Shown here in pieces: positions 1-63,995 of a DNA stretch of 64,000 bases. This DNA is from Sipunculus nudus (Eukaryota > Annelida > Sipuncula > Golfingiida > Sipunculidae), in assembly GCA_026874595.1 (NCBI GenBank), contig CM049311.1:47867676-47931675 (forward strand). Direction: 5' to 3'. How positions within the stretch are numbered: position 1 is the first letter of the stretch; the number at the start of each line of letters is the position of its first letter. Made by a program: the position numbers and the translations under genes. The notes beneath the pieces are model-generated. The model saw only the letters and a list, made by a program, of their open reading frames with translations, made no database searches and was not told the origin of the DNA.

Positions 1-611
1 CGCACCGAGGACCCATTTTATACTATCTAGGCTAATATCTGGTTTTTAAAGTCATTGGACAGACACGGTTGAGGTGATCTGGGATCACCGCCCCGGTTGT
101 AACTTTAGACTATGAATTTTGAGGAGCCGAAAGACGCGATGTCAACCCAGCGAGAGCCGAGAGACCGCCAACGTTTCATCCGCACCGGTGACCTGAGGAA
201 AGCTACATCACCAACACCTACAAAGCCAGAAGCAGTATGCATTCCCTCCACCAATCCCAGCAACGGAGACAAAGCCATACCAAATGAGAGCCGAACCCAA
301 TCAACAAACGACAGAGCTTTGAGACGAAAGCAATTTTATACTTGCAGTTTCTGCCATTTAGACAACGTTAGCAAGTATTTTCTTAACATGCTAATATTAT
401 CTAGCTAGATCTAATTTTTAAAATCATTAGACGGACACGGTTTAGATGATCAGAGATCATCGTCCCGGTTGTCCCTTTAGACTATGAATTTTGAGGAGCC
501 GATAGACGCGATGCTATGACCAAGCCAAGCCTTCAGGAGCCGAGAGACCGCCAACCCCAGAACCCGCACCGGCGACCTTGGGAAAGCTACAGCACCCACA
601 CCCGCAGAAGC
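1..611. repeat. Tandem ~372-bp repeat, left part, host of the foldback insertion
   Basis: Two successive copies of one unit are visible. The segment around 38-140 (GTCATTGGACAGACACGG, then GACTATGAATTTTGAGGAGC) recurs around 408-511, an offset of about 372 bp. The following part (GAGAGACCGCCAAC, then GAAAGCTAC) recurs at about 155-205 and 545-590. Copy 1 is complete from about 30 to 401. Copy 2 breaks at 611 and resumes at 6582. The repeat continues past the left edge. It has no convincing coding capacity; the 98-residue ORF at 112-408 is read as chance. Its family is not recognised. Confidence 0.8.
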
Positions 612-825
612 ACGACTGTGAAGTTCGACGGACGTCCGAGGTCCATTTTTCGTGAAAATGCTCCGTGAATGCCTGCTCTTCCTCCGCTTTAAGCCGAAAA
701 CATATTTCCCTGACCAGCCTTCTGTTCACCGCTTTGCAGTGTATTTCGCTGATCATCGCTGCCCTCAAGGCTTCGTCAAGATCATGTATATCAAACGGTG
801 CCAATACACGCTTTCTAATAGACAA
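514..825 (-). CDS. Outward ORF in the left foldback terminus, possible captured gene fragment
   Basis: An open frame of about 100 codons reads from inside the terminal repeat toward the outside and runs across the target duplication into the host repeat. About 70 codons (825 to 612) belong to the element. The peptide is charged and helix-like, for example FDIHDLDEAL and RRLVREICFRLKAEEEQ. The first codon is TTG, not ATG, so a normal start is missing. The same frame exists in the right arm but has TAG at 6506-6508. I do not recognise the family. It may be a fragment of a host or transposase gene trapped in the terminus, as in Pack-MULE-like capture, or it may be open by chance. Expression is not indicated. 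Confidence 0.25.
   Translation of the reverse strand: MSIRKRVLAPFDIHDLDEALRAAMISEIHCKAVNRRLVREICFRLKAEEEQAFTEHFHEKWTSDVRRTSQSCFCGCGCCSFPKVAGAGSGVGGLSAPEGLAWS
603..611. repeat. Left 9-bp target-site duplication of the foldback element
   Basis: CGCAGAAGC stands directly outside the left terminal repeat and recurs exactly at 6573-6581, outside the right terminal repeat. The intact repeat copy has the related GCCAGAAGC once, at 225-233, as expected for a duplication created on insertion. Nine-base duplications are known for Mutator-like and Foldback (FB) elements. Confidence 0.9.
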
Positions 826-851
826 ATTTCACTATTAATAATACTAATAAT
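612..851 (+). repeat. Left unique terminal inverted repeat (240 bp)
   Basis: This is the reverse complement of 6333-6572, with about twelve mismatches by eye. It is less AT-rich than the internal array. It carries an outward-facing reading frame (see 514-825, minus) whose right-arm counterpart has an in-frame stop. The inner edge is set where the array motif GCGACTATTATTC begins. Confidence 0.85.
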
Positions 852-3444
852 GCGACTATTATTCTTTTTTTAAAAATCTGCTTGATATAAAAAATGTTAT
901 AAAATTTTAAATACGCTAAACAACCCATCAAGTTTGGTATCAACGGAAAGTACTTTTCACAGGTAGTCACATGGTATGAATTTTAGAGTGGCACAAGTGA
1001 GCGTTTTAGAGAAGTCAAATACGACTTTTATTCAATTTTATTTTAATTTAGCGTGAATTTTAAAGTGTTATAAAATTTTAATTACGCTAAACAACCCATT
1101 AAGTATGGTATCAACGGAAAGTACTTTTTACTGGTAGTCACATGGTATGAAATTTAGAGTGGCACAAGTAAGCGTTTTAGAGCAGTCAAATACGACTTTT
1201 ATTTAATTTTATTTTAATTTAGCGTGAATTTTAAAGTGATATAAAATTTTAATTACGCTAAACAACCCATCAAGTTTGGTATCAACGGAAAGTACTTTTA
1301 ACAGGTAGTCACATGGTATGAATTTTAGAGTGGCACAAGTAAGCGTTTTAGAGCAGTCAAGTACGACTTTTATTCAAATGTTTTAATTTAGCGTGAATTT
1401 TAAAGTATTATACATCTTTAAATACGCTAAACAACCCATCAAGTTTGGTATCAACGGAAAGGACTTTTTACTGGTATTCACATGGTATGAATTTTAGAGT
1501 GGCACAAGTGTGCGTTTTAGAGCAGTCAGATACGACTATTATTCATTTTTTTTTAAATTTAGCGTGAATTTTAAAGTGTTATTAATCTTTAAATACGCTA
1601 AACAGCCCATCACGTTTGATATAAACGGAAAGAACTTTTTACTGGTAGTCACATGGTATGAATTTTAGAGTGGCACAAGTGAGCGTTTTAGAGCAGTCAA
1701 ATACGACTATTATTCAATTTTATTTTAATTTAGCGTGAATTTTAAAGTGTTATAAAATTTTAATTACGCTAAACAACCCATCAAGTTTGGTATCAACGGA
1801 AAGTACTTTTTACTAGTATTCACATGGTATGAATTTTAGAGTGGCACAAGTGAGCGTTTTAGAGCAGTCAAGTACGACTATTATTAATTTTTTTCTAATT
1901 TAGCGTGAATTTTTAAGTGATATAAAATTTTAATTACGCTAAACAACCCATCAAGTTTGGTATCAACGGAAAGAACTTTTCACTGGTAGTCTTATGGTAT
2001 GAATTTTAGAGTGGCACAAGTGAGCGTTTTAGAACAGTTAAGTACGACTTTTATTCAATTTTTTTAATTTAGCGTGAATTTTAAAGTATTATACATCTTT
2101 AAATACGCTTAACAACCCATCAAGTTTGGTATCAACGGAAAGGACTTTTTACTGGTATTCACATGGTATGAATTTTAGAGTGGCACAAGTGAGCGTTTTA
2201 GAGCAGTCAAGTACGACTTTTATTCAAATTTTTTAATTTAGCGTGAATTTTAAAGTATTATACATCTTCAAATACGCCAAACAACCCATCAAGTTTGGTA
2301 TCAATGGAAAGGACTTTTTACTGGTATTCACATGGTATGAATTTTAGAGTGACACAAGTGTGCGTTTTAGAGCAGTCAGATACGACTATTATTCATTTTT
2401 TAAAAATTTAGCGTGAATTTTAAAGTGTTATTAATCTTTAAATACGCTGAACAACCCATCACGTTTGGTACAAACGGAAAGAACTTTTTACTGGTGGTCA
2501 CATGGTATGAATTTTAGAGTGGCACAAGTGAGCGTTTTAGAGCAGTCAAATACGACTATTATTCAATTTTATTTTAATTTAGCGTGAATTTTAAAGTGTT
2601 ATAAAATTTTAATTACGCTAAACAACCCATCAAGTTTGGTATCAACGGAAAGTACTTTTTACTGGTATTCACATGGTATGAATTTTAGAGTGGCACAAGT
2701 TAGCGTTTTAGAGCAGTCAAGTACGACTGTTATTAATTTTTTTTTAATTTAGCGTGAATTTTAAAGTATTATTATTCTTTAAATACGCTAAACAACCCAT
2801 CAAGTTTGGTATCAACGGAAAGGACTTTTTACTGGTATTCACATGGTATGAATTGTAGAGTGGCACAAGTGAGTGTTTTAGAGCAGCCTGATACGACTAT
2901 TATTCATATTTTTTAATTTCCCGTGGATTTTAAAGTGTTATATATATTTAAAAACGCTTAACAACCCATCAAGTTTGGTATCAAAGGAAAGTACTTTTCA
3001 CTGGTAGTCCCATGGTATAAAAATTAGAGTGGCACAAGTGAGCGTTTTAGAGCAGTCGGATACGACTATTATTCATTTTTTTTAATTTCTCTTGGATTTA
3101 AAAGTGTTATATATCTTTAAATACGCTAAACAACCCATCACGTTTGGTATCAACGGAAAGTACTTTTCACTGGTAGTCCCATGGTATAAAAATCAGAGTG
3201 GCACAAGTGACCGTTTTAGAGCAGCCTGATACGACTATTATTCATTTTTTTTTTTAATTTCCCGTGGATTTTAAAGTGTTATATATATTTAAATACGCTT
3301 AACAACCCATCAAGATTGGTATCGACGGAAAGTACTATGCACTGGTAGTCCCATGGTATATAAATTAGAGTGGCACAAGTGAGCGTTTTAGAGCAGGCGG
3401 ATACGACTATTATTCATTTTTTTAATTTCTCTTGGATTTTAAAG
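852..3444 (+). repeat. Left-arm satellite array of ~170-bp units
   Basis: The CAACCCATCAAG landmark occurs at about 921, 1092, 1263, 1432, 1603, 1774, 1944, 2113, 2282, 2452, 2623, 2793, 2962, 3131 and 3303, a period of 169-172 bp. Other unit landmarks are GGTATCAACGGAAAG, CACATGGTATGAATTTTAGA and GTGGCACAAGTGAGCG. Units near the centre (after about 2900) carry different variants (CCATGGTATAAAAAT, TCTCTTGGATTT) from outer units, so the arm was not homogenised in one step. Short ORFs inside are repeat artefacts. Confidence 0.93.
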
Positions 3445-6332
3445 TCGTATCAGGCTGCTCTAAAACACTCACTTGTGCCACTCTAATTTTTATACCATTG
3501 GACTACCAGTGAAAAGTACTTTCCGTTGATACCAAACTTGATGGGTTGTTTAGCGTATTTAAAGAAATATAACACTTTTAAATCCAAGAGAAATTTAAAA
3601 AAATGAATAATAGTCGTATTTGACTGCTCTAAAACGCTCACTTGTGCCACTCTAATTTTTATACCATGTGACTACCAGTGAAAAGTAGATTCCGTTGATA
3701 CCAAACTTGATGGGTTGTTAAGCGTTTTGAAATATATTTAACACTTTAAAATCCACGGGAAATTAAAAAAATGAATAATAGTCGTATCAGGCTGCTCTAA
3801 AACGGTCACTTGTGCCACTCTGATTTTTATACCATGGGACTACCAGTGCAAAGTACTTTCCGTTGATACCAAACTTGATGGGTTGTTTAACTTTTTTAAA
3901 GATATATAACACTTTTAATTCCAAGAGAAATTAAATAATGAATAATAGTCGTATTTGACTGCTCTAAAACGCTCACTTGTGCCACTGTAATATTCATACT
4001 ATGTGACTACCTATGAAACGATCTTTCCGTTGATACCAAACTTGATGGGTTCTTTAGCGTATTTAAAGATGTATAATACTTTAAAATTCACGCGAAATTA
4101 AAAAAAAAATGAATTATAGTCGTATTTGACTGCTCTAAAACGGTCACTTGTGCCACTCTGATTTTTATACCATGTGACTACCAGTGAAAAGTTCTTTCAG
4201 TTGATACCAAACTTGATGGGTTGTTTAGCGTATTTTACAATATATAACACTTTAATATTCCAGAGAAATTAACAAAATGAATAATAGTCGTATCTGACTG
4301 CTCTAAAACGCTCACTTGTGCCACTCTAATTTATATTCCATGGGACTATACCAGTGCATAGTACTTTCCGTTGATACCAAACTTGATGGGTTGTTAAGCG
4401 TATTTAAATATATATAACACTTTAAAATCCACGGGAAATTAAAAAAATGAATAATAGTCGTATCAGGCTGCTCTAAAACGCTCACTTGTGCCACTAATTT
4501 TTATACCATGGGACTACCAGTGAAAAGTACTTTCCGTTGATACCAAAATTGATGGGTTGTTTAGCGTATTTTAAAATATATAACACTTTAAAATCCAAGA
4601 GAAATTAAAAAAATGAATAATAGTCGTATCTGACTGCTCTAAAACGCTCACTTGTGCCACTGTAATTTTTATAGAATGTGACTACCAGTGCAAAGTACTT
4701 TCCGTTGATACCATACTTGATGGGTTCTTTAGCGTATTTTAAGATATATAACACTTTAAAATTCACGCTTAATTTAAAAAAATGAATAATAATCGTATCA
4801 GGCTGCTCTAAAACGCTCACTTGTGCCACTCTGATTTTTATACCAACGGACTACCAGTGCAAAGTACTTTCCGTTGATACCAAACTTGATGGGTTGTTAA
4901 GCGTATTTAAAGATATATAACACTTTTAAATCAACGCGAAATTAAAAAAAAATGAATAATAGTCGTATCAGGCTGCTCTAAAACGGTCACTTGAGCCACT
5001 CTGATTTTTATACCATGGGACTACCAGTGAAAAGTACTTTCCGTTGATACCAAACGTGATGGGTTGTTTAGCGTATTTAAATATATATAACACTTTAAAA
5101 TCCACGGAAAATTAAAAAAAAATTGAATATTAGTCGTATCTGCCTGCTCTAAAACGCTCACTTGTGCCACTCTACAATTCATACCATGTGAATACCAGTA
5201 AAAAGTACTTTCCGTTGATACCAAACTTGATGGGTTCTTTAGCGTATTTTAAGATATATAACACTTGAAAATTCAAGCGAAATTAAAAATAAATGAATAA
5301 TAGTCGCATTTGACTGCTCTAAAACGGTCACCTGTGCCACACTACAATTTATACCAAGTGAATACCAGTAAAAAGTACTTTCCGTTGATACCAAACTTGA
5401 TGGGTTCTTTGGCGTATTTAAAGATATAAAACACTTTAAAATTCACGCTAAATTAAAAAAAAAATTATATAATGGTCGCATTTGACTGCTCTAAAACGGT
5501 CACTTGTGCCACTGTAAAATTCATACCATGTGAATACCAGTGCAAAGTACTTTCCGTTGATACCAAACTGGATGGGTTCTTTGGCGTATTTTAAGATATA
5601 AAACACTTTAAATTCACGCGAAATTAAAAAAAATTGAATAATAGTCGCATTTGACTGCTCTAAAACGGTCACTTGTGCCACTCTAAAATTTATCCCATGT
5701 GAATACCAGTAAAAAGTACTTTCCGTTGATACCAAACTGGATGGGTTCTTTGGCGTATTTTAAGATATATAACACTTTAAAATTCATGCGAAATTAAAAA
5801 TAAATGAATAATAGTAGCATTTGACTGCATTAAAACGGTCACTTGTGCCACTGTAAAATTCATACCATATCACTTCCAGTGAAAGGTACTTTCCGTTGAT
5901 ACCAAATTGGATGGGTTCTTAAGCTTATTTAAAGATGTATAATACCTTAAAATTCATGCGAAATTAAAAATAAATGAATAATAGTCGTATCTGACTGCTC
6001 TAAAACGGTCACTTGTGCCACTCTAAAATTCATACCATGTGACTACCTTTGAAAAGTACTTTCCGTTGATACTAAACTTGATGGGTTCTTTAGCGTATCT
6101 AACATTTTATGACACTTTAAAATTCACTCGAAATTAAAATAAATGAATAACAGTTGTACCTGACTGCTCTAAAACGCTCACTATGCCTCTCTAAAATTTA
6201 TTTTAAAAAATGTGACTACCTGTGAAAAGAACTTTCTGTTGATACCAAACTTGAAGGGTTGTTTAGCGTATTTAAAATTTTTTAACATTTTTTATATCAA
6301 GCAGATTTTTAAAAAAAAAGAATAATAGTCGC
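3445..6332 (-). repeat. Right-arm satellite array, inverted orientation
   Basis: This array has the same ~170-bp unit on the opposite strand. The complementary landmark CTTGATGGGTTG (or a variant) recurs about every 170 bp from about 3540 to 6250, giving about 17 units. The switch of strand falls within TTTAAAGTCGTATCAGG near 3444, where the left unit runs directly into an inverted unit. Several annotated-length ORFs on the minus strand (for example MVSTESTFYWYSHG) are units read through and are not genes. Confidence 0.92.
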
Positions 6333-6572
6333 ATTATTAGTATTATTAATAGTCATATTTGTCTGTTGGAAAGCGTGTATTGGCGCCGTTTGATATACAT
6401 GATCTTGACGAAGCCTTGAGGGTAGCGAGGATCAGCGAAATACACTGCAAAGCGGTGAACAGAAGGCTGGTCAGGGAAATATGTTTCCGGCTAAAAGCGG
6501 AGGAATAGCAGGCATTCACGGAGCACTTTCACGAAAAATGGACGTCGGACGTCCGTCGAACTTCACAGTCGT
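6333..6572 (-). repeat. Right unique terminal inverted repeat (240 bp)
   Basis: This is the reverse complement of 612-851 and ends CTTCACAGTCGT directly before the second target duplication. Its length equals that of the left terminus, which fixes both element boundaries. Confidence 0.85.
6359..6508 (+). pseudogene. Right-terminus counterpart of the outward ORF, interrupted
   Basis: The frame reads KRVLAPFDIHDLDEALR and then RRLVREICFRLKAEE, followed by TAG where the left copy has GAG. Further differences are A-to-V and M-to-R type changes. The frame is readable for about 50 codons. It shows that at least one copy of the trapped frame is not under coding constraint. Confidence 0.35.
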
Positions 6573-6581
6573 CGCAGAAGC
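6573..6581. repeat. Right 9-bp target-site duplication
   Basis: CGCAGAAGC is identical to 603-611. The host repeat resumes immediately after it (AGCATGCATTCCCTCCACC), matching 234-251 of the intact copy. Confidence 0.9.
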
Positions 6582-6790
6582 AGCATGCATTCCCTCCACC
6601 GATCCCAGCAGCGGAGACCCAGCCAAGCCAATCGAGATCCGAACTCGATCCATGATACGACAGAGCTTCGAGACGAGAGCCATTTTTTTACTTGCAGTCT
6701 CGGCCATTTAGAGAGTATTACCAAGTTTTTCGTCATACGCCCTAATATTCCCAAAAATGTTGGATCAGATCTGTTTAAGGCAAATAAACA
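6582..6790. repeat. Tandem ~372-bp repeat, right remainder of the interrupted copy
   Basis: This matches about 233-400 of the intact copy: GCATTCCCTCCACC, GATCCCAGCAGCGGAGAC, CAGAGCTTCGAGACGAGAGC, ACTTGCAGT and CGCCCTAATATT. Similarity fades after about 6750-6790. ORFs at 6481-6830 are overlapping frames of the same repeat and element end. Confidence 0.75.
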
Positions 6791-13868: not shown

Positions 13869-14109
13869 TTTAGTTTTCAGCCCATTTCCTGTAAAGTCTT
13901 GACGGATGGAATGTGTATTATAAGAGTTCCTGTGATTCATGTAGGGCCGTATGCTCGAAAGCTGTTTAACTAGTGTTTAAATTACCTGTTAGGCAGACGG
14001 TATTTTAACCGGTATGCTTGAAGCTTGTTTATCGTTAGTAGAAGGTTACATTTGGAGAGGGTTAAATTTAAAAGGGGTTGTATGCTCGAAGGGTGTTTAA
14101 CTAAACAAC

Positions 14110-14116
14110 TGCTCAC
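14110..14116. repeat. Left target-site duplication of the nested element
   Basis: TGCTCAC lies immediately outside the left end and recurs at 18351-18357. With one mismatch at the outer base it extends to 8 bp (CTGCTCAC versus TTGCTCAC). Confidence 0.55.
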
Positions 14117-16457
14117 GGGTCCGTGTCACCTGGACGCTGTTCAGATGGACGCTATAAAAATGGACGCCGACAGCTGGACGCTATGAAAATGGACGCTGAT
14201 CAGCTGGACGCTATCCATTTAGACGCTATCCCAACACTATGAGAATCATGCAGGGATAATCATACAAAATAAAGCTAAATGAATCCACCAACTCAACCCA
14301 TTGTTATTTGTTCTTAGTATTATGCACTTTTGTCAGATTTGGAACCATATGTATCGGCTTATATCGCCCATTTGTGATGACGAACCATTAATGGACGACC
14401 GAATAGGAAAATGAAATTGAACTGTGTCAGTAAAGATTTTTCTGTAGATGTGTGTTTTGTGTATTTTTTTACCCACCAAACGTTCATCACGCAATGATTT
14501 ATAGTTTCCAAGGGCGATTGGTTTGAACTGCTTACACCTGGGCAACCGGTCCGATCGATGATACGTACCGCATTTTCAAGCTTTGAGATTTATGACAATA
14601 AGAACAATTTCGTAGGAGATAGAACTACTTAATATAGGTAACAATCATTGCTTTTTTCATCGTTACAACGATTTTAATGCTTGGTAGAAATAGGCCTACG
14701 AAGCTTTCCAGCGGCAAGACGTTGTATAGGTTTAAGTTATAGGGAAACACGATATGACGAGAGTAAACATACTTGTGTATATACATTGTATATTGTTATG
14801 TGATTTTGTCAACATGTGTTTTTTAAATGACTTATCTTTCAAAGACAATCTGATTTTTTAGACACCAGTGCATACCAGATAAAATTTTTACATAATATTG
14901 TAAACTACACACATATAATCAGAGAAACATTGCTGTTTCTTGGAGTTTTATCAGATTAGCCGGTAGGTACCCGAGATCAAAGACTGTTTACCATCTTTAA
15001 ATTAATTAGTTCTATAACAACAATAACTTTTGACTTGAGTTCTCCTGTTAATTGAGCATCATGTCATGTAATCATCACATGACACGGCGGGCACCACCAG
15101 ACTAGTCGCATATATATGTGTGTGTGTTCTTATTTATAAAGTTTGGAATAAATGAGTATGAATTCCAAATTATCGACCCCTGAAATGTTTATGTGTTTCC
15201 TTGGCCGAATAACTCCGTAAAATTAAGTGCATAGCTTTTAGAGCAAATGTATGCACTTTTTTATTTGTTTGTTATCTAAATGTGTTGGCTTCTTGTGAAA
15301 TATACTTTTTATTGCGCGCCATGCTCGCCAGCTTCACTATTTTTTGTATAACATCCAATTTAACCTCACTGAATTTTAATAAATTTCAGAGGAACACAAC
15401 AACATCTGAAAATTTATTTAGACTATTTATAAAATGCCGGAAAACATGTAGCATCAATAACATTAACAAACAGTAGGCACATTCAAACAAAATAAAAAAA
15501 TTACAATTACATTTACATTTCTAATAAAAAAAGAGTTCATGAAAATGCAATGAAATCCTAATTATGTTCTAAGAAAATTATATATTAATCGTATCTTATC
15601 TCCAGTGCATTTTTGTACCATGTCGGCGGTCCTTCTTGTGACTGTTTTCTTGGTAGATAAGGTTAATCCCTCGTCCTTTCTTTACTAATACGGCATCTGA
15701 CGTTTCCATGTTGTAAGTATCATGTGAGTGATTATTGCTTGGACTTTACTGATATATATACCAGAAGCGGAACTGAACAAACTTCTCTTGAAGTTCTCAT
15801 CAAGGGACATCGAAGAACATTAATACGAAAATATTTCAATGGGGTTTCTTAGAATAACATTGACTAATTAAACAGCATGTACCGTTTGAAATGATACTAG
15901 TATATAATCAGATACATAATTAAATTGAGTAGATATGGAGTAGAAAACTGTTTCATTAACTTCCATATGAGATAATATACCCTACTAAGACTTAATGTGA
16001 TCAATACACTGAACTTACAAAAACACAGTCATATTAAGGAAAAGTTTATTTTTCAAAATATTTAAAATATACACACGGGCCGTTTATCTGATAATACACT
16101 TGATATCTGAACAGCGTCCATTTCCAAAGTGCAACTCTCTCTCTCTCATCATCGGCAATCGAAAGGTCATGGACTCCATTCCCATCGGCAGTGATCCTAC
16201 TTTTTTGTCATCACGTTCAATTTCTTTATGCAATGAGAAACGCTTTGTGGAACAATTTTTATCATAGCAATATAGTACACCTCGAATTAAAGCAAACATT
16301 CACAAAAAGGCTTTCCATTTATGTGAATATGAACCTGTTCGACTTTCATTTGGATTTCTTTAAATAAATAATTGGAGGGCACACAATATATCCTAAATCA
16401 ATAGCGTCTGATGGTTTGCGGCGTTTATCTGGACAACATCTATACATGTATTTCAAA

Positions 16458-16543
16458 GGCGTCTATCCATACATATATCTGGTAAGTTTATAAGTGTGAA
16501 GGCGTCTATCCATACATATATCTGGTAAGTTTATATGTGTGAA
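16458..16543. repeat. 43-bp tandem duplication
   Basis: GGCGTCTATCCATACATATA followed by TCTGGTAAGTTTATA.GTGTGAA occurs twice back to back, with one visible difference. Confidence 0.9.
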
Positions 16544-16889
16544 ATGGCAATAAATTTATTTTTTTGTTATTCATTTATGAATTGAATATGTGGTGAATGT
16601 TGTGAAAAATGAAATATTAACTCGTTTAGAGAGACTATGATGTGATTTTTACAATAAATGAGACCCAGTATGTAGTTGGCTAGGGAAGTCCCGAAATCTT
16701 ATTAATTTTTCGTTTAACAAGATTATTGACTATGCTATCTCTTATATATATAATACTTTTTCGTCAAGTATATATATGTATATATATGTAATAATAATAG
16801 TTTTATTCAAGTATAAAGGTCTCCGGCCTATAGAACATATAATCAATATAACATCATTTTTAATGATAATTTGTGGTGCTTAACCTTGG

Positions 16890-16891
<2 letters not shown>

Positions 16892-16945
<54 letters not shown>
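16892..16945. repeat. (TA)n microsatellite
   Basis: About 27 TA units, followed by short TG-rich sequence. Confidence 0.97.
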
Positions 16946-16951
<6 letters not shown>

Positions 16952-17027
16952 CTGGTAATGTGTGTGTGTGGAATAAAATAAATAAAATTAAAAATAAAAA
17001 TTTGTAAATGCAGTCAGATATTCTAAA

Positions 17028-18210
17028 CCGGACATGGATCAGTGATCATGTGATGTTATTTTAACAATAAACGAGTTCCGGGTACAATGTCAGTTAGAGC
17101 CTGGTAATCCGATTGATCATTTAAGTAACGGGAGACCCCGATAATGAGGTAGGTAATTTTCTTTGATGTTGACAAATTAATCCTATCATGTACATGATTT
17201 CATTGCTTCAAAGTTCTTTAATTTTAACTCAACATTATAATTGAGAAAAGATATAAAGTATAATAAACATTACATTACCTTTATATCATTGAAACTACAC
17301 ATGACCATTATTTAAAAATTTTCTTTGTTGGGTAAATGAAACAAAAGACCTTCATTCGCACGAAATATGCACAAACACACATTATAATCTAAACATAAAA
17401 TGGCTTTTATTCAATTGGGTCCCCCTTTTATGGAAACATTTAAAATAATGAGAATTATATTCGTTACTTGTCATTAGGCGTCTTTCTGAAAGGGTGGATA
17501 CAGACGCTGGCGTCTATAATACGTTATCGTCTATATGATCAGCGTTCATTTTAATTAGCATGATATATAAAATATGATTTAAAACATCATGTTGGTATTG
17601 ATAATTGTTTTATTAAATTAGATTTAAAATCTAAGGAAACAATTTATTGTAGCTCTGTGAAACAGTCAAATACTCTAGACCGGACATGGATCAGTGATCA
17701 TATGATTTTGTTTTATCAATAAACGAGTCCTGGGTTCAACGTCAGTTAGAGCCTGGTCACCTGATTGATCATTTATTTAACGGGAAACCCCGACAATGAG
17801 GTAAGTTTTCTTTGATGTTGACTAATTAATGCTATCATGTACTTGATTTAATTGCTTCAAAGTTCTTTTATTTTAACTATACATTGTATATTGCGAATGA
17901 TAGAATAATTTACAATGGAAAATATAATAAACATTACATTACCTTTATATAATTGAAACTACACATGACCATTATTTAAAATTTTCTTTGTTGGGTAAAT
18001 GAAACAAAAGACCCTCATTCGCACGAAATATGCACAAACACTCGATATAATCTAAAACATATCATGGTTATTATTAAATTGGGTCCCCCTTTTATGGAAA
18101 CATTTAAAAATAATGAGAATTATATTCATTTCTTGTCATTAGGTGTCTTTCTGAAAAGATGGATGCAGACGATGGTAACGATGGCGTCTATAATACGATG
18201 GTCTCTAAGA
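17028..18210. repeat. Direct repeat pair, ~540 bp each, offset 652 bp
   Basis: GGACATGGATCAGTGATCAT begins both copies, at 17030 and 17682. The similarity continues through GTCAGTTAGAGCCTGGT, CATTACATTACCTTTATAT, CATTCGCACGAAATATGCAC and AATTGGGTCCCCCTTTTATG to the GGCGTCTATAATACG motif (about 17508 and 18182). A more diverged third piece may lie near 16620-16670. The ORF at 18064-18249 is part of copy 2. Confidence 0.85.
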
Positions 18211-18772
18211 CATTTTGTTAACGTTCATCTTCAATCACACGATATATGAATAGCTTTATGAACAGCGTCCATTTTCATGGCGTCCAAATGAACAGCGTCC
18301 AGGTGATACAATGGCGTCTATTTGTACAGCGTCCGTCTGAGATGATCCCTTGCTCACTGTTAAAGTGCCGTATGCTCGAAAGAAATTTTAATAATTAATG
18401 ATATCTAAGTTTCACATTTGTCAGTGTCTTACTTTAACTCTAAACAGACTCTAAAACCCCTCTAACTGGTCAAAAGTTTAGAGGAGCCTCAGGGTATGTT
18501 TAAGGCCTGTTTAGGTGGCGAGCGGCATTTCATTTCTACTTCATTTAGTGACTAAAACATATTTATTACTTTGTTCCAACTTACATTTTAATTTGGATGA
18601 TCTGTAAACTACAAACCAAAGATAGACGAATTTCCTAATGTTCTGGTAGACGGATAAAAAAACGAATGAACAGGAATTTGGGGCTATATCAAAGTAGAAC
18701 CACTTGATCAGATGTGGACATGCAACAAGGAAACTAATTATAGGGCTTGTCATCCAAGTAATTAAGCCGGCG

Positions 18773-49058: not shown

Positions 49059-49546
49059 TTATTGGGATTTATTAGGAAGGATCGGTTCCTGTTCTTCTCT
49101 TTGTGTCTGGTCCGGCAGATCCGCCGCCATATTGCACATTTCTATATCCTGTGATTCAGAAGAGCCTAAATCGGTATTACTATTTGTTACAAATTTTGCA
49201 TTGGTATAATTTTTTTCCTCTTCTGTATATTCCTTTCGAGAATCCCACAACTTTCTCCCTCCGTGTTTTTGACCGTTTCGTGATATATCCTTTTTATCCA
49301 AATTATATATGCGGTTAGGGTTCTCACGGGAATTCCTCAACGAGTTCACATACACACTGGATGCTAAAACGCCTGACGTCATTCCAGTGGAGCGATCTGA
49401 ATAATAGCGCCCCCTGGCGAGTCTCATGCGTGCCTCTTCATTCAGGAAACATCTGCACACGGTCTCTTTGAATGCTTGTCTGTATTTCCGTGACATTAGA
49501 TTATAAAGTATGGGGTTGACCGTCGAGCTGACAAAGTACAGTACTC
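49059..49546 (-). CDS. GPCR last exon: TM7 and cytoplasmic tail
   Basis: 488 bp. The acceptor CATTTTCAG gives phase 1 in: G from the previous exon plus GA makes Gly of MSG|VLYF. It ends with TAA at 49061-49059. The tail has charged, low-order segments (RKEYTEEEKNYTNAKF, QTQREEQEPILP). Confidence 0.9.
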
Positions 49547-50143
49547 CTGAAAATGATAAGTACTTCATATATTAACATAAATTTGATCAACAATATCTAT
49601 TGACAAACTGCTTAACTTATATTATGAGATTAACTCAATATGGCGATCAAGAGACAATTACTATTGTTGTACCACAAGAACGTAAAACAGGGCTTTTAAT
49701 ATATTAAATGCTGGCTTGAGAATCGTAACATTTATGTAGTATGGCATTATTCTGTCTCAATAGACATTAATACAACCCTGGCTGATAAATCTGTCTCTGA
49801 CGTGACTGAATAGTCGAACTCTGACATGGCAGTCTCTGTCCTACTTTACAAACAAAGACAAATGTGTATGATATAACCAGCTTACCCTAGAAAATACAAA
49901 AATGCGTTTCTATTCATAACATGGTGTATATGATTAACAATAAGTTAGGTCTATTATCCGTATCTTTAAGAATACTTGTAGGGATTTTGGGCCACAGCAC
50001 AATTTAGCAACATTATAATATACCAAGGACATGGTCTGCATTCACAAAACAAATGATCAAGAAAAATAGACAAATAGGGCAAATCCGAAGAAAAATAATT
50101 CTTTTCGTATGGCCTAAGATTAAACTCTGTCCTTTTAATGAAT

Positions 50144-50192
<49 letters not shown>

Positions 50193-50985
50193 ATTATTAC
50201 ATCTTAAAAATATCCATGTTAATTATACATATGAGAGTGAAAACGATCTTCCCAGCATTGATAATTCCTATTCAATTTTCAAGAATTAGTTATACAAATA
50301 CTTAAACAGTAAATTAGTGTTCCTAAAAACCTAACACGTCAATTATTTCTAGATACATTTATCTTGCAAAGATTGAAGGTCGAGTTCATTCTATGTGGTT
50401 ATTTATGTAAGCTATTGATACCATTTTTTTATTTGCACAATGACTTGATAATGTCAAGATGATTACAAAAAAAAACACAACAGGGGCGGAGCAGCTAATT
50501 AGTTTGCTCTATCCTTTGCTCTTTATAAATTACGATTAAAAGAGATCGTGGCCCCGCATTATCGGTGTTTATTTGATAACAACAAAGAACTAACTTCTTT
50601 CAATTGTGTACCATGAATGACATTTTAAAAAGTAAATTACTGTTATTAAAAACCACACACTGCTTCAGTGCTGTCAATATCAATTTACTATTGTCATGCC
50701 GGGGGCGAGATAGGGAAATAATCCCAAAGGTCAAAGCAATATCACGCGGTTTGTCGAGTTATTTTTCTTCATATCACGTCAATAATGATAAATCGAGAAT
50801 ATTACGACCGAGCCATAGTAAGTGGAACTTTATTCCTGGATAGAGTGACTCACCTGACATGTAAAACAACACGTCTTGGAAGTGTTTGAGTTCGTCCGTC
50901 CATTGGTCATCTTTGAGAAAGGCGGTCATGAGACGCTGGGCGTGAAACGGGGCCCAGCAGAGGAAGAACGCCACCACCACGGCAA
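49059..50985 (-). CDS. Class A neuropeptide GPCR, 3' part (pyrokinin/CAPA/neuromedin-U receptor-like)
   Basis: Two minus-strand exons splice in frame (50985-50854 and 49546-49059). The first encodes TM6 with the F-x-x-C-W-x-P-F signature (VVVAFFLCWAPFHAQRLM) and extracellular loop 3. The second encodes TM7 with the NPxxY motif (VSSTVNPILYNLMS), helix 8 (RKYRQAFKETVCRCF, with palmitoylatable Cys) and a ~140-residue Ser/Asn-rich tail. CWAPFHAQRL together with YMSGVLYFVSSTVNPILYN is typical of the receptor group that binds pyrokinin, CAPA and neuromedin-U peptides, which generally signals through Gq. TM1-5 are absent. No exon for them was seen between 51 and 64 kb, so they probably lie past the right edge beyond an intron of more than 13 kb. 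Alternatively this is a truncated gene. Confidence 0.88.
49547..50853 (-). other. GPCR intron, 1.3 kb
   Basis: Donor GTGAGT (minus) at 50853 and acceptor TTTTCAG at 49547. It contains a (TA)n tract. ORFs within are not supported. Confidence 0.8.
50147..50188. repeat. (TA)n microsatellite in the GPCR intron
   Basis: About 20 TA units followed by four TTA triplets. Confidence 0.97.
50854..50985 (-). CDS. GPCR exon: TM6 and extracellular loop 3
   Basis: 132 bp. Acceptor TTTTTGTAG (minus) just above 50985, phase 2 in and phase 1 out. It encodes AVVVAFFLCWAPFHAQRLM, then DDQWTDELKHFQDVLFYMS. Confidence 0.9.
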
Positions 50986-50990
50986 CTACA

Positions 50991-51488
50991 AAAACAAAAT
51001 GACAGTTAAATGTAAGGTATATGATGGAGCCCTATGGTTCGCTGGTCATAGAAGCTAAAGTCCTCTGTCGAAACTGAACAATTTACATGAAAAGCGAAAT
51101 GGTAAAATCTCGGCAGGACCTCGGAGATTCGCTCGGAAGGCCTAGCGATAGGTTATGACCGGTTATTCCTATAGCCTCGTGCATATAAACTCTGACATAG
51201 ATGGATTAATAATAACATATATCACTCTTATCGTCATTCTACATCTTCTATATCGTTATTATTTTAACTGGTCAAAATGGAGTGGACACACTCTCAGGTT
51301 AAATTTTGCAGCTTTTTGGATTTTGCCAAGTTTTGCTGATTTTGAATCAAAATCACCTGAGAATGTGCACGCCATCTTGGAGATTGCACGACCGACAACG
51401 TTCGATCGAAAAGATTTCCCCCAAATATGGGACAAACTGTCGAATTTACAGGTCATACACTTCGAATTGATAAAAAAATTCATTGCTA

Positions 51489-54768: not shown

Positions 54769-56557
54769 AATCGGACTGGTGGAGCCTACACTCGGACTAG
54801 TAGAGCCTACACTCGGACTGGTGGAGCCTACACTCGGACCGGTGGAGCCTATACTCGGACTGATGGAGATTAGACTCGGACTGGTGGAGCCTAGACTCGG
54901 GCTGGTGGAGCCTAGACTCGGACTGTTGGAGCCTAAACTCGGACTGGTGGAGACTAGACTCGGACTGGTGGAGCCTAGACTCGGACTGGTGGAGCCTAGA
55001 CTCGGAGTGGTGGAGTCTACACTCGGACTGGTGGAGCCTAGACTCGGACTTGTGGAGCCTAGACTCGGACTGGTGAAGCCTAGACTCGGACTGGTGGAGT
55101 CTAGACTCGGACTGGTGGAGCCTAGACTCGGACTGGTGGAGCCTAAACTCGGACTGGTGGAGCCCAGACTCGGACTGGTGGAGCCTAGACTCGGACTGGT
55201 AGAGCCTAGACTCGGACTGATGGAGCCTAGACTCGCACTGGTGGAGCCTAGACTTGCACTGGTGGAGCCTAGACTCGGACTGGTGGAGCCTACACTCGGA
55301 GTGGTGGAGCCTAAACTCGGACTGTTGGAGACTAGACTCGGACTGGTGGAGCCTAGACTCGGACTGGTGGAGCCTACACACGGACTGGTGGAGCCTACAC
55401 TCGGACTGGTAGAGCCTAGACTCGGACTGATGGAGCCTACACTCGGAGTGGTGGAGCCTAAACTCGGACTGTTGGAGACTAGACTCGGACTGGTGGAGCC
55501 TAGACTCGGACTGGTGGAGCCTACACACGGACTGGTGGAGCCTACACTCGGACTGGTAGAGCCTAGACTCGGACTGATGGAGACTAGACTCGGACTGGTG
55601 GAGCCTAGACTCGCACTGGTGGAGCCTAGACTCGGACTGGTAGAGCCTAGACTCGGACTGATGGAGCCTAGACTTGCACTGGTGGAGCCTAGACTTGCAC
55701 TGGTGGAGCCTAGACTCGCACTGGTGGAGCCTACACTCGGAGTGGTGGAGCCTAAACTCGGACTGATGGATCCTAGACTCGGACTGGTGAAGCCTAGACT
55801 CGGACTGGTGGAGCTTAGACTCGGACTGGTGGAGCCTAGACTCGTACTGGTGGAGCCTAAACTCGGACTGGTGGAGCCCAGACTCGGACTGGTGGAGCCT
55901 AGACTCGGACCGGTGGAGCCTAGACTCGGACTGGTGGAGCCTAGACTCGGACTGGTGGAGCCTAGACTCGGAGTGGTGGAGCCTAAACTCGGACTGGTGG
56001 AGACTAGACTCGGACTGGTGGAGCCTAGACTCGGACTGGTGGAGCCTACACTCGGAGTGGTGGAGTCTACAGTCGGACTGGTGGAGCCTAGACTCGGACT
56101 TGTGGAGCCTAGACTCGGACTGGTGGAGCTTAGACTCGGACTGGTAGAGCCTAAACTCGGACTGGTGGAGCCTAGACTCGGACTGGTGGAGCCTAAACTC
56201 GGACTGGTGGAGCCTAACTTGGACTAATGGAGCCTACACTCGGACTGGTGGAGCCTAGACTCGGACTGGTGGAGCCTACACTAGCTCGGCGTGGTGGAGC
56301 CTACACTCGGACTGGTGGAGCCTATACTTGGACTGGTGGAGCCTACACTCGGACTGGTAGAGCCTACACTCGGACTGGTGGAGACTAGACTCGGACTGGT
56401 GGAGCCTAGACTCGGACTGGTGGAGCCTAAACTCGGACTGGTGGAGCCTACACTCGGACTGGTGGAGCCTACACTCGGACTGGTGGAGCCTACACTCGGA
56501 CTGGTGGAGCCTACACTCGGACTGGTGAAGCCTACACTAGGACTTGCACTCGGTAGG
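54769..56557. repeat. 21-bp minisatellite, about 85 copies
   Basis: The unit GACTCGGACTGGTGGAGCCTA is repeated with point variants (CCTACA, CCTAAA, CTGATG, GGAGACTAG, ACTTGCACT). A higher-order unit of 147 bp (7 x 21) occurs twice in succession, from about 55301 and 55448. A 1-bp deletion near 56215 and a 4-bp net insertion near 56281 break and then restore the period. Confidence 0.97.
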
Positions 56558-62337: not shown

Positions 62338-63995
62338 AAAAAAAAATTATCTCGAGCTCTCGAGATAACATCTCGAGATCTCGACATAGAATTTCGCAAA
62401 AAAAAAAAATTGAAGAAGCAAAAAAAAAAATTTTAGGAAGCAAAAAATAAATTTTAGGAGACAAAAAAAATTTAGAAAGCCAAAAAAATTTAGGAAGCAA
62501 AAAAAGTTTTTTAGAAAGCAAAAAAAAAAATTTAGGAAGCAAAAAAAAAATTTTTTAAGAAGCAAAGAAAAATATAAGGAAGCAAAAAAAAATTTAGACA
62601 GCAAAAAAAACATTGGGAAGCAAAAAAAAAAAAAAAAATAAAGGTAACCCTAGCTGGGAATGGGTCTTATAACGCCACTTTGACGTATAAACATTTTATC
62701 TACAGGCTACTTGTACACAAGGCACTTGAGCAAGTGTTAACATACTGATAAGAACATGTAACCGAGTAACTGAAAGATCACTAGTTGATATTCGTTAGAG
62801 CTTGTGAAGCAATGCAGTATTTGTCATTTACAGAACTCTGTACTCTCTGAATTGAAGCCAAATGTTTCTGCCGGACGTCTTTCTATTACGATCGGTGGCA
62901 ATTTTTGCACCCCCCTCGACCCATGTTATAAAAACACGTGGATATAGACAAAGACATCGCCTTTACCCATGGGATTGGCTCATTTTTATGAAAGGTTTAA
63001 TAGATTATGTTTACCTAGATTTTGTTAATGATTACCTTCATTTGTTTAATATGTATATGCAGAGTTAGCCTGTATTACAAAGATTCTATAAATAAGGCAG
63101 GTGAATAGCAACTTTTAGACCAACTTTTTGCTGAAGAAAAATCATGATGAGAGATGATCGAAATATTTAAGCCGTTTATTTATGAATATAAAACATTTGA
63201 GAAGATAGTTTGACTAAAGGTAATCTGAGCTATAGTTTTAGCTATAGTGGATCAAGACTTGGGCTTTAGGGGCTGAATCACCCCCCTCCCCCCCCCCCCC
63301 CCCCCCCAGCGTACCTACCCGAAAACACAGTAATCATTTTTAGCATATTTTAATTTGTGATGGTCTAATACATGTTCCATAAAACAACACACCACTTCAA
63401 TAAAACAAAAGCTGAAAGAAATTGTACAAAGGAAGCTCATATTTTTTTGTATTTTTAAAATAATAAGGTACCCACAATTCATGCATGCAGACCTAAACAT
63501 TTCTATTTGAGTGATTTAACAGCATGGCTCTGAATCTGCCGTTCAGGTAGAATGTTTCAGTTTCTTTAGGCTTTGACATCTGCCTTACGGATATGAATAA
63601 TTAAATATTGAATTTATATTGAATTTTTCTTCAACTCGCCTTATCTTAGGGGATATAAAAACTTGATTGATTTTAAATTAATTATATTGTATTACCGTTC
63701 AGTTAAACACAGTATACATAGTCTTTGTTTTATAATTGCAATAGTAAGCACTCTTAACGTATACTGTCCCTTTAATGTTGCTTTGCTTTATGTCAATTCA
63801 GCTTCGAATGGTTCATAATAGTGTGCAATTTTATCTGGAGATCTCGAGTTATATATATATATTTTTTTTTTGCTTCCTAAAATTTTTTTTTTTGCTTCCT
63901 AAAATTTTTTTTTTTGCTTTCTTAAATTTTTTTTTTTTTTTTTTTTTGCTTCCAAAATTTTTTTGCGAAACTTATGTCACGATCTCGAGATAAAT
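62338..63995. mobile_element. Second inverted-repeat element with A-tract/GCTTCC subrepeats
   Basis: The left arm (62350-62640) starts TCTCGAGATCTCGACATAGA, then TTTCGCAAAAAAA, and continues as A-runs separated by TTTAGGAAGC about a dozen times. The right arm (63838-63993) is complementary: GCTTCCTAAAATTTTTTTTT repeats, then TTTTTTGCGAAACTTATGTC and ACGATCTCGAGA. About 1.2 kb of unique sequence without a gene lies between. Palindromic TCTCGAGATCTCGAG copies mark both ends. The right end may pass the window edge, so no target duplication could be read. ORFs with FFFLLPKFF peptides are artefacts. Confidence 0.6.
62645..63835. other. Interior of the second inverted-repeat element
   Basis: Unique AT-rich sequence with a poly-C tract (63281-63307). 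No transposase or other ORF is recognised. Confidence 0.45.

Follow-up and report, generated by a model that had tools for sequence, protein, structure and literature searches.

A foldback-type transposon family with satellite arms and variable centres in Sipunculus nudus

The element and its insertion site

The DNA analysed here, the window, is a 64-kb stretch (64,000 nucleotides) of the Sipunculus nudus genome. It contains a whole element of the foldback type, 5,961 bp long (612-6572), bordered on both sides by a 9-bp target duplication, CGCAGAAGC; the left copy (603..611) and the right copy (6573..6581) match exactly, and the 9-mer occurs nowhere else on either strand of the window. From its first base, 612, to its last, 6572, the element reads ACGACTGTGAAG...CTTCACAGTCGT. 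With the next base included, the direct repeat is 10 bp (CGCAGAAGCA at both sides); 9 bp was chosen since it makes the termini symmetrical and agrees with the other copies. Each end is a terminal domain of 238 bp, close to the 240 bp given in an earlier note on this DNA: the right one (6335..6572, minus strand) aligns as an inverted copy of the left (612..849, plus strand, with ACGACTGTGAAG as its outer end), differing from it at 12 of 238 bases, and the inverted alignment extends 340 bp.

The insertion interrupts a tandem host repeat. One unit is intact (20..398, plus strand); the second is broken by the element into a left part (394..611) and a right part (6582..6755), both on the plus strand. 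The earlier note took the intact unit for an internal empty-site control. It does favour insertion, but as an approximate empty site only: identity to the joined flanks is 84.5%, and 6 additional bases stand precisely at the insertion point. Alignment scores were 446 with two target copies, 436 with one and 416 with none; the two-copy alignment is best by a small margin, so the host repeat speaks for an insertion but is no clean empty site.

The terminal domain matches other genome sites at 96-99%. Its single-strand folding is unremarkable (z -0.21), and Rfam and tRNA scans of the 64-kb window gave no matches. A coding role was considered for an open stretch of 70 aa in the left terminus and rejected: the stretch has no match in Pfam and a single weak one in PDB (E 1.5), and the 12 left-right differences hit 12 of its codons, 5 synonymously, 5 with an amino-acid change and 2 involving a stop, and thus give no sign of protein constraint. 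Scans with element patterns found 0 matches in viral contigs. In prokaryote contigs they found a single exact 20-mer, in a Nitrosomonas MAG, about as many as chance is estimated to give in so large a collection. Short element strings were absent from literature full text, a weak negative, as sequences are seldom printed in papers.

Between the termini lie two satellite arrays of opposite orientation, delimited by TRF and a profile search: 15 monomers of ~170 bp on the left (865..3442, plus strand) and 17 inverted monomers on the right (3443..6317, minus strand). They meet head to head at 3440..3445, where monomer position 31 faces position 162 with a 3-bp overlap, AGT. Within the left array, monomers L04-L06 are 96-98% identical to L09-L11. 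The arrays hold no open frame of 110 codons.

One way to obtain such a structure without transposition is to read a single array twice in opposite directions, by misassembly or as a long-read foldback artefact of the kind described in PMC12870357. This is very improbable here, because the arms are 86.8% identical across 2,852 columns (about 13% divergence) rather than ~100%, because they differ in monomer number, and because some monomer groups are specific to one arm; the duplications and the shared outer base of copies on many contigs, described below, also argue against it. The possibility that the arms came from assembly, which the earlier note had named as fatal to its reading, can accordingly be considered unlikely.

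A family with fixed ends

A 23-base terminal pattern was used as the query for a census of the whole source genome, with the reversed pattern as control. The pattern has 73 sites and the control 0; the sites form 27 inverted pairs with spacings of 4.6-42.4 kb. Duplications were scored at the 26 pairs with examined flanks, the window copy included: 19 have exact 9-bp duplications (the window copy among them), one an exact 8-bp duplication, two imperfect 9-bp duplications, one a 19-bp direct repeat, and three none. The outer base of the terminus is identical in copies across many contigs. Given the pattern sites, their pairing and the duplications at most examined pairs, the family consists of mobile elements with fixed ends. 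The two features expected of foldback-type elements are both present: target duplications at many insertion sites (exact in 19 of 26, on many contigs), and long inverted termini with tandem repeats.

The genome thus bears out the earlier description of a complete foldback transposon with base-exact boundaries (612 and 6572) and a 9-bp duplication. Other copies with different boundaries, or without a 9-bp duplication, were to count against that description; for the most part they do not, the exceptions including the three pairs without any duplication, one of which is the largest pair (42.4 kb). These three, and the pair with the 19-bp direct repeat, indicate that some terminus pairs may be recombinants. 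Eight census sites with one or two mismatches are unpaired; in the five of them that were examined (L059-L063) the upstream flank is nearly common to all, so that these sites apparently lie within another repeat.

Thirteen copies were analysed over their full length. The interior of every one is two inverted satellite arrays; non-satellite interior is limited to one inserted element each in copies C5a, C6c and C1a. Arms reach about 25 kb in the family, and arm types combine in differing pairings among copies. The largest fully analysed copy, at 40.06 kb, has 146 + 87 monomer hits and an exact duplication, GTTTCAGCC.

Origin and inheritance of the centres

Twelve copies have readable centres, and among these there are 9 distinct pairs of monomer phases. 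Two centres recur genome-wide: one is found at 5 places, and that of the window copy at 4 (3 besides the window). In copies with a common centre the innermost monomers are 97-99% identical in 7 of 8 comparisons, the exception being the right arm of C5a against the left arm of C6c (92% only). Nine breakpoints among 12 copies, with two nevertheless recurrent, indicate that centres are inherited once made, while several originated separately.

How a centre is made can be pictured in two ways. The palindrome may break and be rejoined at arbitrary monomer positions, as we favour; or each centre may come from its own inverted duplication, by hairpin-primed copying, of a one-ended array. The second picture is unlikely, although it has points in its favour: the centres of C6a (130/130) and C4c (29/29) coincide with short palindromes and join monomers at the same phase, and in C8a, C4b, C5a and C1a the best mirrored innermost alignment is 93-94%, with an arm median of 89-91%. 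Against these stand the joining of unequal phases at 7 of 9 centres; a best mirror identity that departs from the arm median by no more than about 2 points in C10a, C2a, C6a, C6b and C7a; and the finding that, in 11 copies, a copy's own two ends are mutually closest only in C5a (in a tree with 17 of 19 inner branches open). Microhomology at the centres was considered and set aside: the overlaps there do not exceed in length those obtained by joining the same arrays at random (P = 0.22), and microhomology repair is therefore not demonstrated.

Movement or growth of the giant copies

A different question is whether giant copies move at all. It may be that only small elements insert, and that the giant copies are products of array growth after insertion that have never moved themselves. 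We incline somewhat against this but regard it as a substantial possibility. In the five largest of the 13 copies most monomers have their nearest relative within their own copy (54-79% in C1a, C4b, C4c, C5a and C6c; 9% in the window copy; the expectation from number alone is 2-18% across copies); C4b contains an 8.25-kb direct duplication; and around the window copy's centre arm lengths span 2.3 to 24.8 kb, that is, tenfold. Other observations speak against it. The giant copies C5a and C6c (27.1 and 33.9 kb) are on separate contigs with separate duplications, yet they have a common centre and an inserted element of ~2.65 kb at the identical monomer position and orientation (its distance from the centre is 9.3 kb in one and 11.7 kb in the other), a pattern that movement of the entire structure would produce; the monomers bordering the shared insert are only 91-92% identical between the two. 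Copy C6b, at 22.5 kb, likewise shows little in-place growth (same-copy nearest monomer 17%, against 10% by number).

The likely transposase

The 9-bp duplications (one of 8 bp) fall within the 8-11 bp given for MULE elements, and match the 9 bp given for Rehavkus, in PMC6446971; together with the long inverted termini they suit a MULE or Rehavkus-like element as described there. The minisatellite near the terminus, another Rehavkus trait, is also present, and here the repeats fill both arms. A Mutator-type transposase, MULE or Rehavkus-like, is thus the most likely one. The alternative is a foldback element of another superfamily, with a non-Mutator transposase making 9-bp duplications. Foldback architecture is said to originate in different superfamilies (PMC4079207, PMC3688188), and the terminus starts A-C-G, unlike most arthropod MULE ends, which PMC13359780 describes as mostly starting with G/C; G/C at the outermost three bases is not a strict rule for MULEs. 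Nor does any of the 27 pairs enclose a MULE-domain match, among the 131 matches listed (150 of 252 candidates scored). We nonetheless judge another superfamily improbable, given the duplication lengths and the long inverted termini.

Among the matches listed, two MULE matches are near a pair, both outside it: one lies to the left of the C10 64.55 pair, at a distance of 10.6 kb, and the other, an OTU-MULE, 1.7 kb past the broken end of C6a. The latter gene was considered as an autonomous partner but is not proposed as one, as the 23-base census shows no second terminus beyond it; no autonomous partner with these ends was found among the MULE-domain matches listed. Galileo, a foldback element, belongs to the P superfamily and makes a 7-bp duplication. 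Seven-bp duplications flank none of the 26 pairs, where 9 bp predominates.

A working model and its relatives

The best explanation, and very probably the right one, is a non-autonomous foldback DNA transposon with ends moved in trans, a satellite interior and an unstable centre. That is, a transposase supplied in trans would recognise the 238-bp ends and move the element by cut-and-paste, inserting it through a 9-bp staggered cut, of which the duplications are the trace; arms would lengthen and shorten by unequal exchange and block duplication, a process to which monomer kinship points; the palindrome centre would be prone to breakage, followed by end-joining at arbitrary monomer positions; each centre, once made, would be passed on through later insertions, as the different and shared centres suggest; and ends and arms may be swapped between copies, to judge from the arm types. 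The outcome would be the dispersal of ready-made satellite arrays of 4-40 kb across the genome. A stronger version makes the satellite a cargo: elements of 20-40 kb, consisting solely of short ends and a pair of inverted satellite arrays, would move intact, their centres repeatedly broken and re-made, seeding and reshaping arrays as they go. This we propose tentatively, as close to an even call.

Several known elements are built similarly. Tetris of Drosophila virilis is described in PMC4079207 as lacking conserved ORFs, as making duplications of 8-10 bp, as carrying a unique outer domain and AT-rich tandem repeats of ~220 bp within long inverted termini, as varying in array size, and as a source of satellite arrays; the likeness in outer domain and repeats is one of description. 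The same account gives Tetris a middle domain, termini as long as 1,735 bp and three copies of complete structure, whereas in the present family the arms meet directly at a variable centre, reach about 25 kb and are found in 27 paired copies. Rehavkus-1_TC of Tribolium is alike in architecture (PMC10218199, PMC6446971), and the 9-bp duplications and minisatellite given for Rehavkus (PMC6446971) recur here; the transposase that Rehavkus encodes carries a PHD finger, and those sources list Rehavkus from arthropods and annelids. Tm1 of root-knot nematodes, as described in PMC3169594, shares composite inverted termini whose tandem repeats vary in number, and duplications that are mostly of 9 bp; it differs in its 13-15 bp repeat unit, in the size of one example (about 1 kb), in outer motifs that are asymmetric and in known transposase-bearing elements, its groups occurring with and without a putative transposase. 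Galileo has long, internally repetitive inverted termini, some of whose repeats are bound by the DNA-binding domain of its transposase (PMC3688188); it differs in superfamily, as noted above. The architecture is therefore known from Tetris and Rehavkus-1_TC; the scale and the turnover of centres are new to us.

It has long been asked how satellite arrays come to occupy new places. In this family insertion is shown by ends and duplications defined to the base, and the 40-kb relative of the window copy points to a way in which such elements could distribute preformed blocks of satellite DNA. Centre breakpoints serve as heritable lineage tags, and monomer kinship helps to separate in-place growth from transposition. 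The family, whose 27 paired copies vary widely in size, could be used to test the carriage of satellites by transposons, the survival time of long palindromes in a genome and the change of array length after insertion.

An origin of the monomer from the terminus was considered as well. When the two were compared under two scoring schemes, the right terminus was equalled by 2 of 500 shuffles in the first and 15 of 500 in the second, the left by 296 and 367; the first scheme is suggestive of such an origin for the right terminus but not for the left.

The element in the window and its insertion site

The complete foldback element with a 9-bp duplication, as first read from the window, is borne out. 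It spans window 612-6572 (5,961 bp) and ends in 238-bp termini that are inverted relative to each other, with 12 differences; the 9-bp CGCAGAAGC flanks it at 603-611 and 6573-6581. There are two copies of CGCAGAAGC in the whole 64 kb, both beside the element ends; for any single pair of ends, nine flanking bases would match perfectly by chance with a probability of about 4 to the minus 9. Each arm is a series of inward-pointing satellite monomers, each about 170 bp long, 15 on the left and 17 on the right; the arms meet directly at 3440-3445, without a middle domain, and AGT is common to both sides of the junction. No stop-to-stop frame of 110 codons was found in these arrays. A mirrored assembly artefact is disfavored, as the two arms are just 86.8% identical (2,852 columns).

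The element splits a host tandem repeat within its second unit (units 20-398 and 394 onward). The earlier note took the neighboring unit as an internal empty-site control, and this stands in part: the neighbor does present the uninterrupted order, and the joined flanks match it at 84.5% identity over 367 columns, but it falls short of an empty site exact to the base. Opposite the insertion, the intact unit (window 197-240) reads TACAAAGC CAGAAGC, with six additional bases precisely there; the alignment scores 446 when two target copies are kept, 436 when one is kept and 416 when both are removed. The intact unit may have undergone its own indel or plain divergence, or may carry an old footprint, that is, a decayed double target.

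A family with fixed ends

The genome (1.43 Gb, 153 contigs) contains many relatives. In a search with the left terminus, the 40 scored candidates of 78 were 96-99% identical to it, the window itself aside, with matches on contigs numbered up to C17. A census with a 23-base terminus pattern, allowing at most two mismatches, found 73 sites, 63 of them exact; the reversed pattern, used as control, found 0. Neighboring sites in opposite orientation, taken as pairs from the site table, give 27 paired elements of 4.6-42.4 kb, plus 19 unpaired sites; the copy C6a (C6 58.33) falls outside the 27 with its broken right end, whose last 9 bases are replaced.

Both flanks were examined for 26 of the 27 pairs, all but C12 25.51, and the duplication seen in the window recurs: it is an exact 9-mer in 19, an exact 8-mer in one (C11 41.05), and an imperfect 9-mer in C2 27.15 (one mismatch) and C2 34.5 (two mismatches). 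The C11 77.38 pair has a 19-bp direct repeat at its flanks; three of the 26 have no target duplication (C1 59.86, C2 41.75 and C11 51.34). These flanks show that the family inserts with a 9-bp duplication; it has fixed ends, many insertion sites and an inverted satellite interior.

Eight unpaired mismatched sites are divergent relatives of the terminus. Five were examined (L059-L063) and apparently lie within another repeat, as their upstream flank is nearly constant; the sequence downstream looks coding by eye, on the opposite strand.

Thirteen copies were examined end to end: the window copy, ten others and two giants, C4c and C6c. All 13 have the same plan of terminus, satellite array, inverted satellite array and terminus. 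C4c reaches 40.06 kb; its arrays give 146 + 87 monomer hits, and its target duplication, GTTTCAGCC, is exact. A single inserted element, about 2.4-2.7 kb long, is present in each of C1a (L027-L029), C5a (L018-L020) and C6c (L051-L053); these inserts include GTCCGTCCGTCC stretches and terminate in AGCTCAGCTGAC / AGCTGAGCGTC.

Ends, centers and arms

When 41 ends are compared over their outermost 1.3 kb, groups of 10, 7, 4 and 2 emerge, 97-98% identical within each, and 18 remain ungrouped at a cut-off of 3.5%. The groups pair differently from copy to copy; ends may have been swapped between copies. At its left end the window copy closely resembles many others. At its right end it clusters with C7a when the first 420 bp are used (5 differences, support 100/100), in a tree of 22 ends that is otherwise weakly resolved, with 17 of its 19 inner branches open; over 1.3 kb the two do not fall into one group. 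The two right ends also have in common a six-monomer stretch, offset by one monomer, at 96.7%. Left arms are similar and right ends related in these two copies, yet their centers differ.

The center, where the arms join head to head, can be read in 12 copies (in C1a the inserted element occupies it), and these present nine distinct pairs of joined monomer positions. Pair 1/109 is common to three of the copies examined in full, and occurs at five places genome-wide, each within a paired element. Another center is common to C5a and C6c (8/75 and 75/11, with 48-50 extra bases). The window's own center occurs at four places: in the window, within a 4.6-kb element on C8, within the C2 pair that spans 42.4 kb, and on C7 at a distance of 13.8 kb from an unpaired end; by census positions, the arms about it measure 2.3-24.8 kb. 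In seven of eight comparisons of copies with a common center, the innermost monomers are 97-99% identical (the eighth, C5a right against C6c left, gives 92%); farther outward the monomer register is lost. As the same center is found at several places with near-identical innermost monomers, centers are heritable tags, yet several have arisen. Breakage and end-joining could create them; the overlaps at centers, 1-10 bases, are not above those of random joins (P = 0.22).

Growth and movement

Nearest-monomer analysis (1,274 monomers, 13 copies) places the closest relative within the same copy for 54-79% of monomers in the five largest (C4c, C6c, C5a, C1a and C4b); in large copies ties are frequent, affecting 48% of the monomers in C4b. 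In the remaining eight the figure is 6-43%: 9% in the window copy, and 17% versus 10% by number in C6b, the sixth largest (22.5 kb). In C4b, moreover, a stretch of 8.25 kb is duplicated in direct orientation, at 95% identity. This duplication and the same-copy kinship of monomers indicate that the large arrays grew mostly in place, perhaps by unequal exchange within arms.

Large elements may also move. C5a and C6c, of 27.1 and 33.9 kb, have a center in common and carry an inserted element at identical monomer position and orientation, the inserts being 95.8% identical with short flanks included; the target duplications of the two copies differ, suggesting movement of a large element in one piece. 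The likeness may instead reflect exchange among copies or a preferred site that was hit twice, as the monomers flanking the insert are just 91-92% identical. Mobility of the family presumably depends on a transposase that is supplied in trans and works on the 238-bp ends.

Affinities

Mutator, broadly taken (MULE or Rehavkus), is the most likely superfamily, on account of the 8-9 bp duplications and long termini; the duplication ranges compared come from an excerpt of PMC6446971. A MULE-domain search, with 150 of 252 candidates scored, gave at least 131 matches; of those listed, not one lies between the ends of the 27 pairs. An OTU-MULE transposase-like gene of 898 codons lies at L058 746-3442, 1.7 kb past the broken end of C6a, its whole-protein MULE score slightly below Pfam's cut-off.

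Tetris, as excerpted from PMC4079207, shares this plan: its repeat is about 220 bp, its duplications measure 8-10 bp and its satellite grows; the authors there likewise argue for Mutator. Rehavkus-1_TC, in excerpts of PMC10218199 and PMC6446971, has a 164-bp satellite inside inverted termini, mostly of five and eight monomers. For a family whose interior of up to 40 kb is all satellite and whose centers turn over, no description came up in the open-licence papers searched.

Other features of the window

Window 14091-18369 holds another inverted-repeat element, about 4.3 kb long and unrelated to the first, between 11-bp direct duplications GTATGCTCGAA (14080-14090 and 18370-18380). Its composite termini, of roughly 15-bp TGGACGC motifs, are reminiscent of Tm1; within it, two direct copies of a stretch of about 590 bp match at 83% identity (17011-17571 and 17663-18250). 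On the minus strand, an exon at 49062-49571 resembles a neurotensin/neuromedin-type peptide GPCR, and a second likely GPCR exon, recognized by eye, lies at 50777-51031. The GPCR-like exon makes an animal host probable; a bivalve would be a guess, based on what the inserted element resembles. At 54771-56544 a 21-bp repeat, open in several frames, recurs about 84 times in a GC-rich array. Near the window end, A/T-run repeats with GCTTCC motifs form an inverted pair (62370-62488 and 63864-63991).
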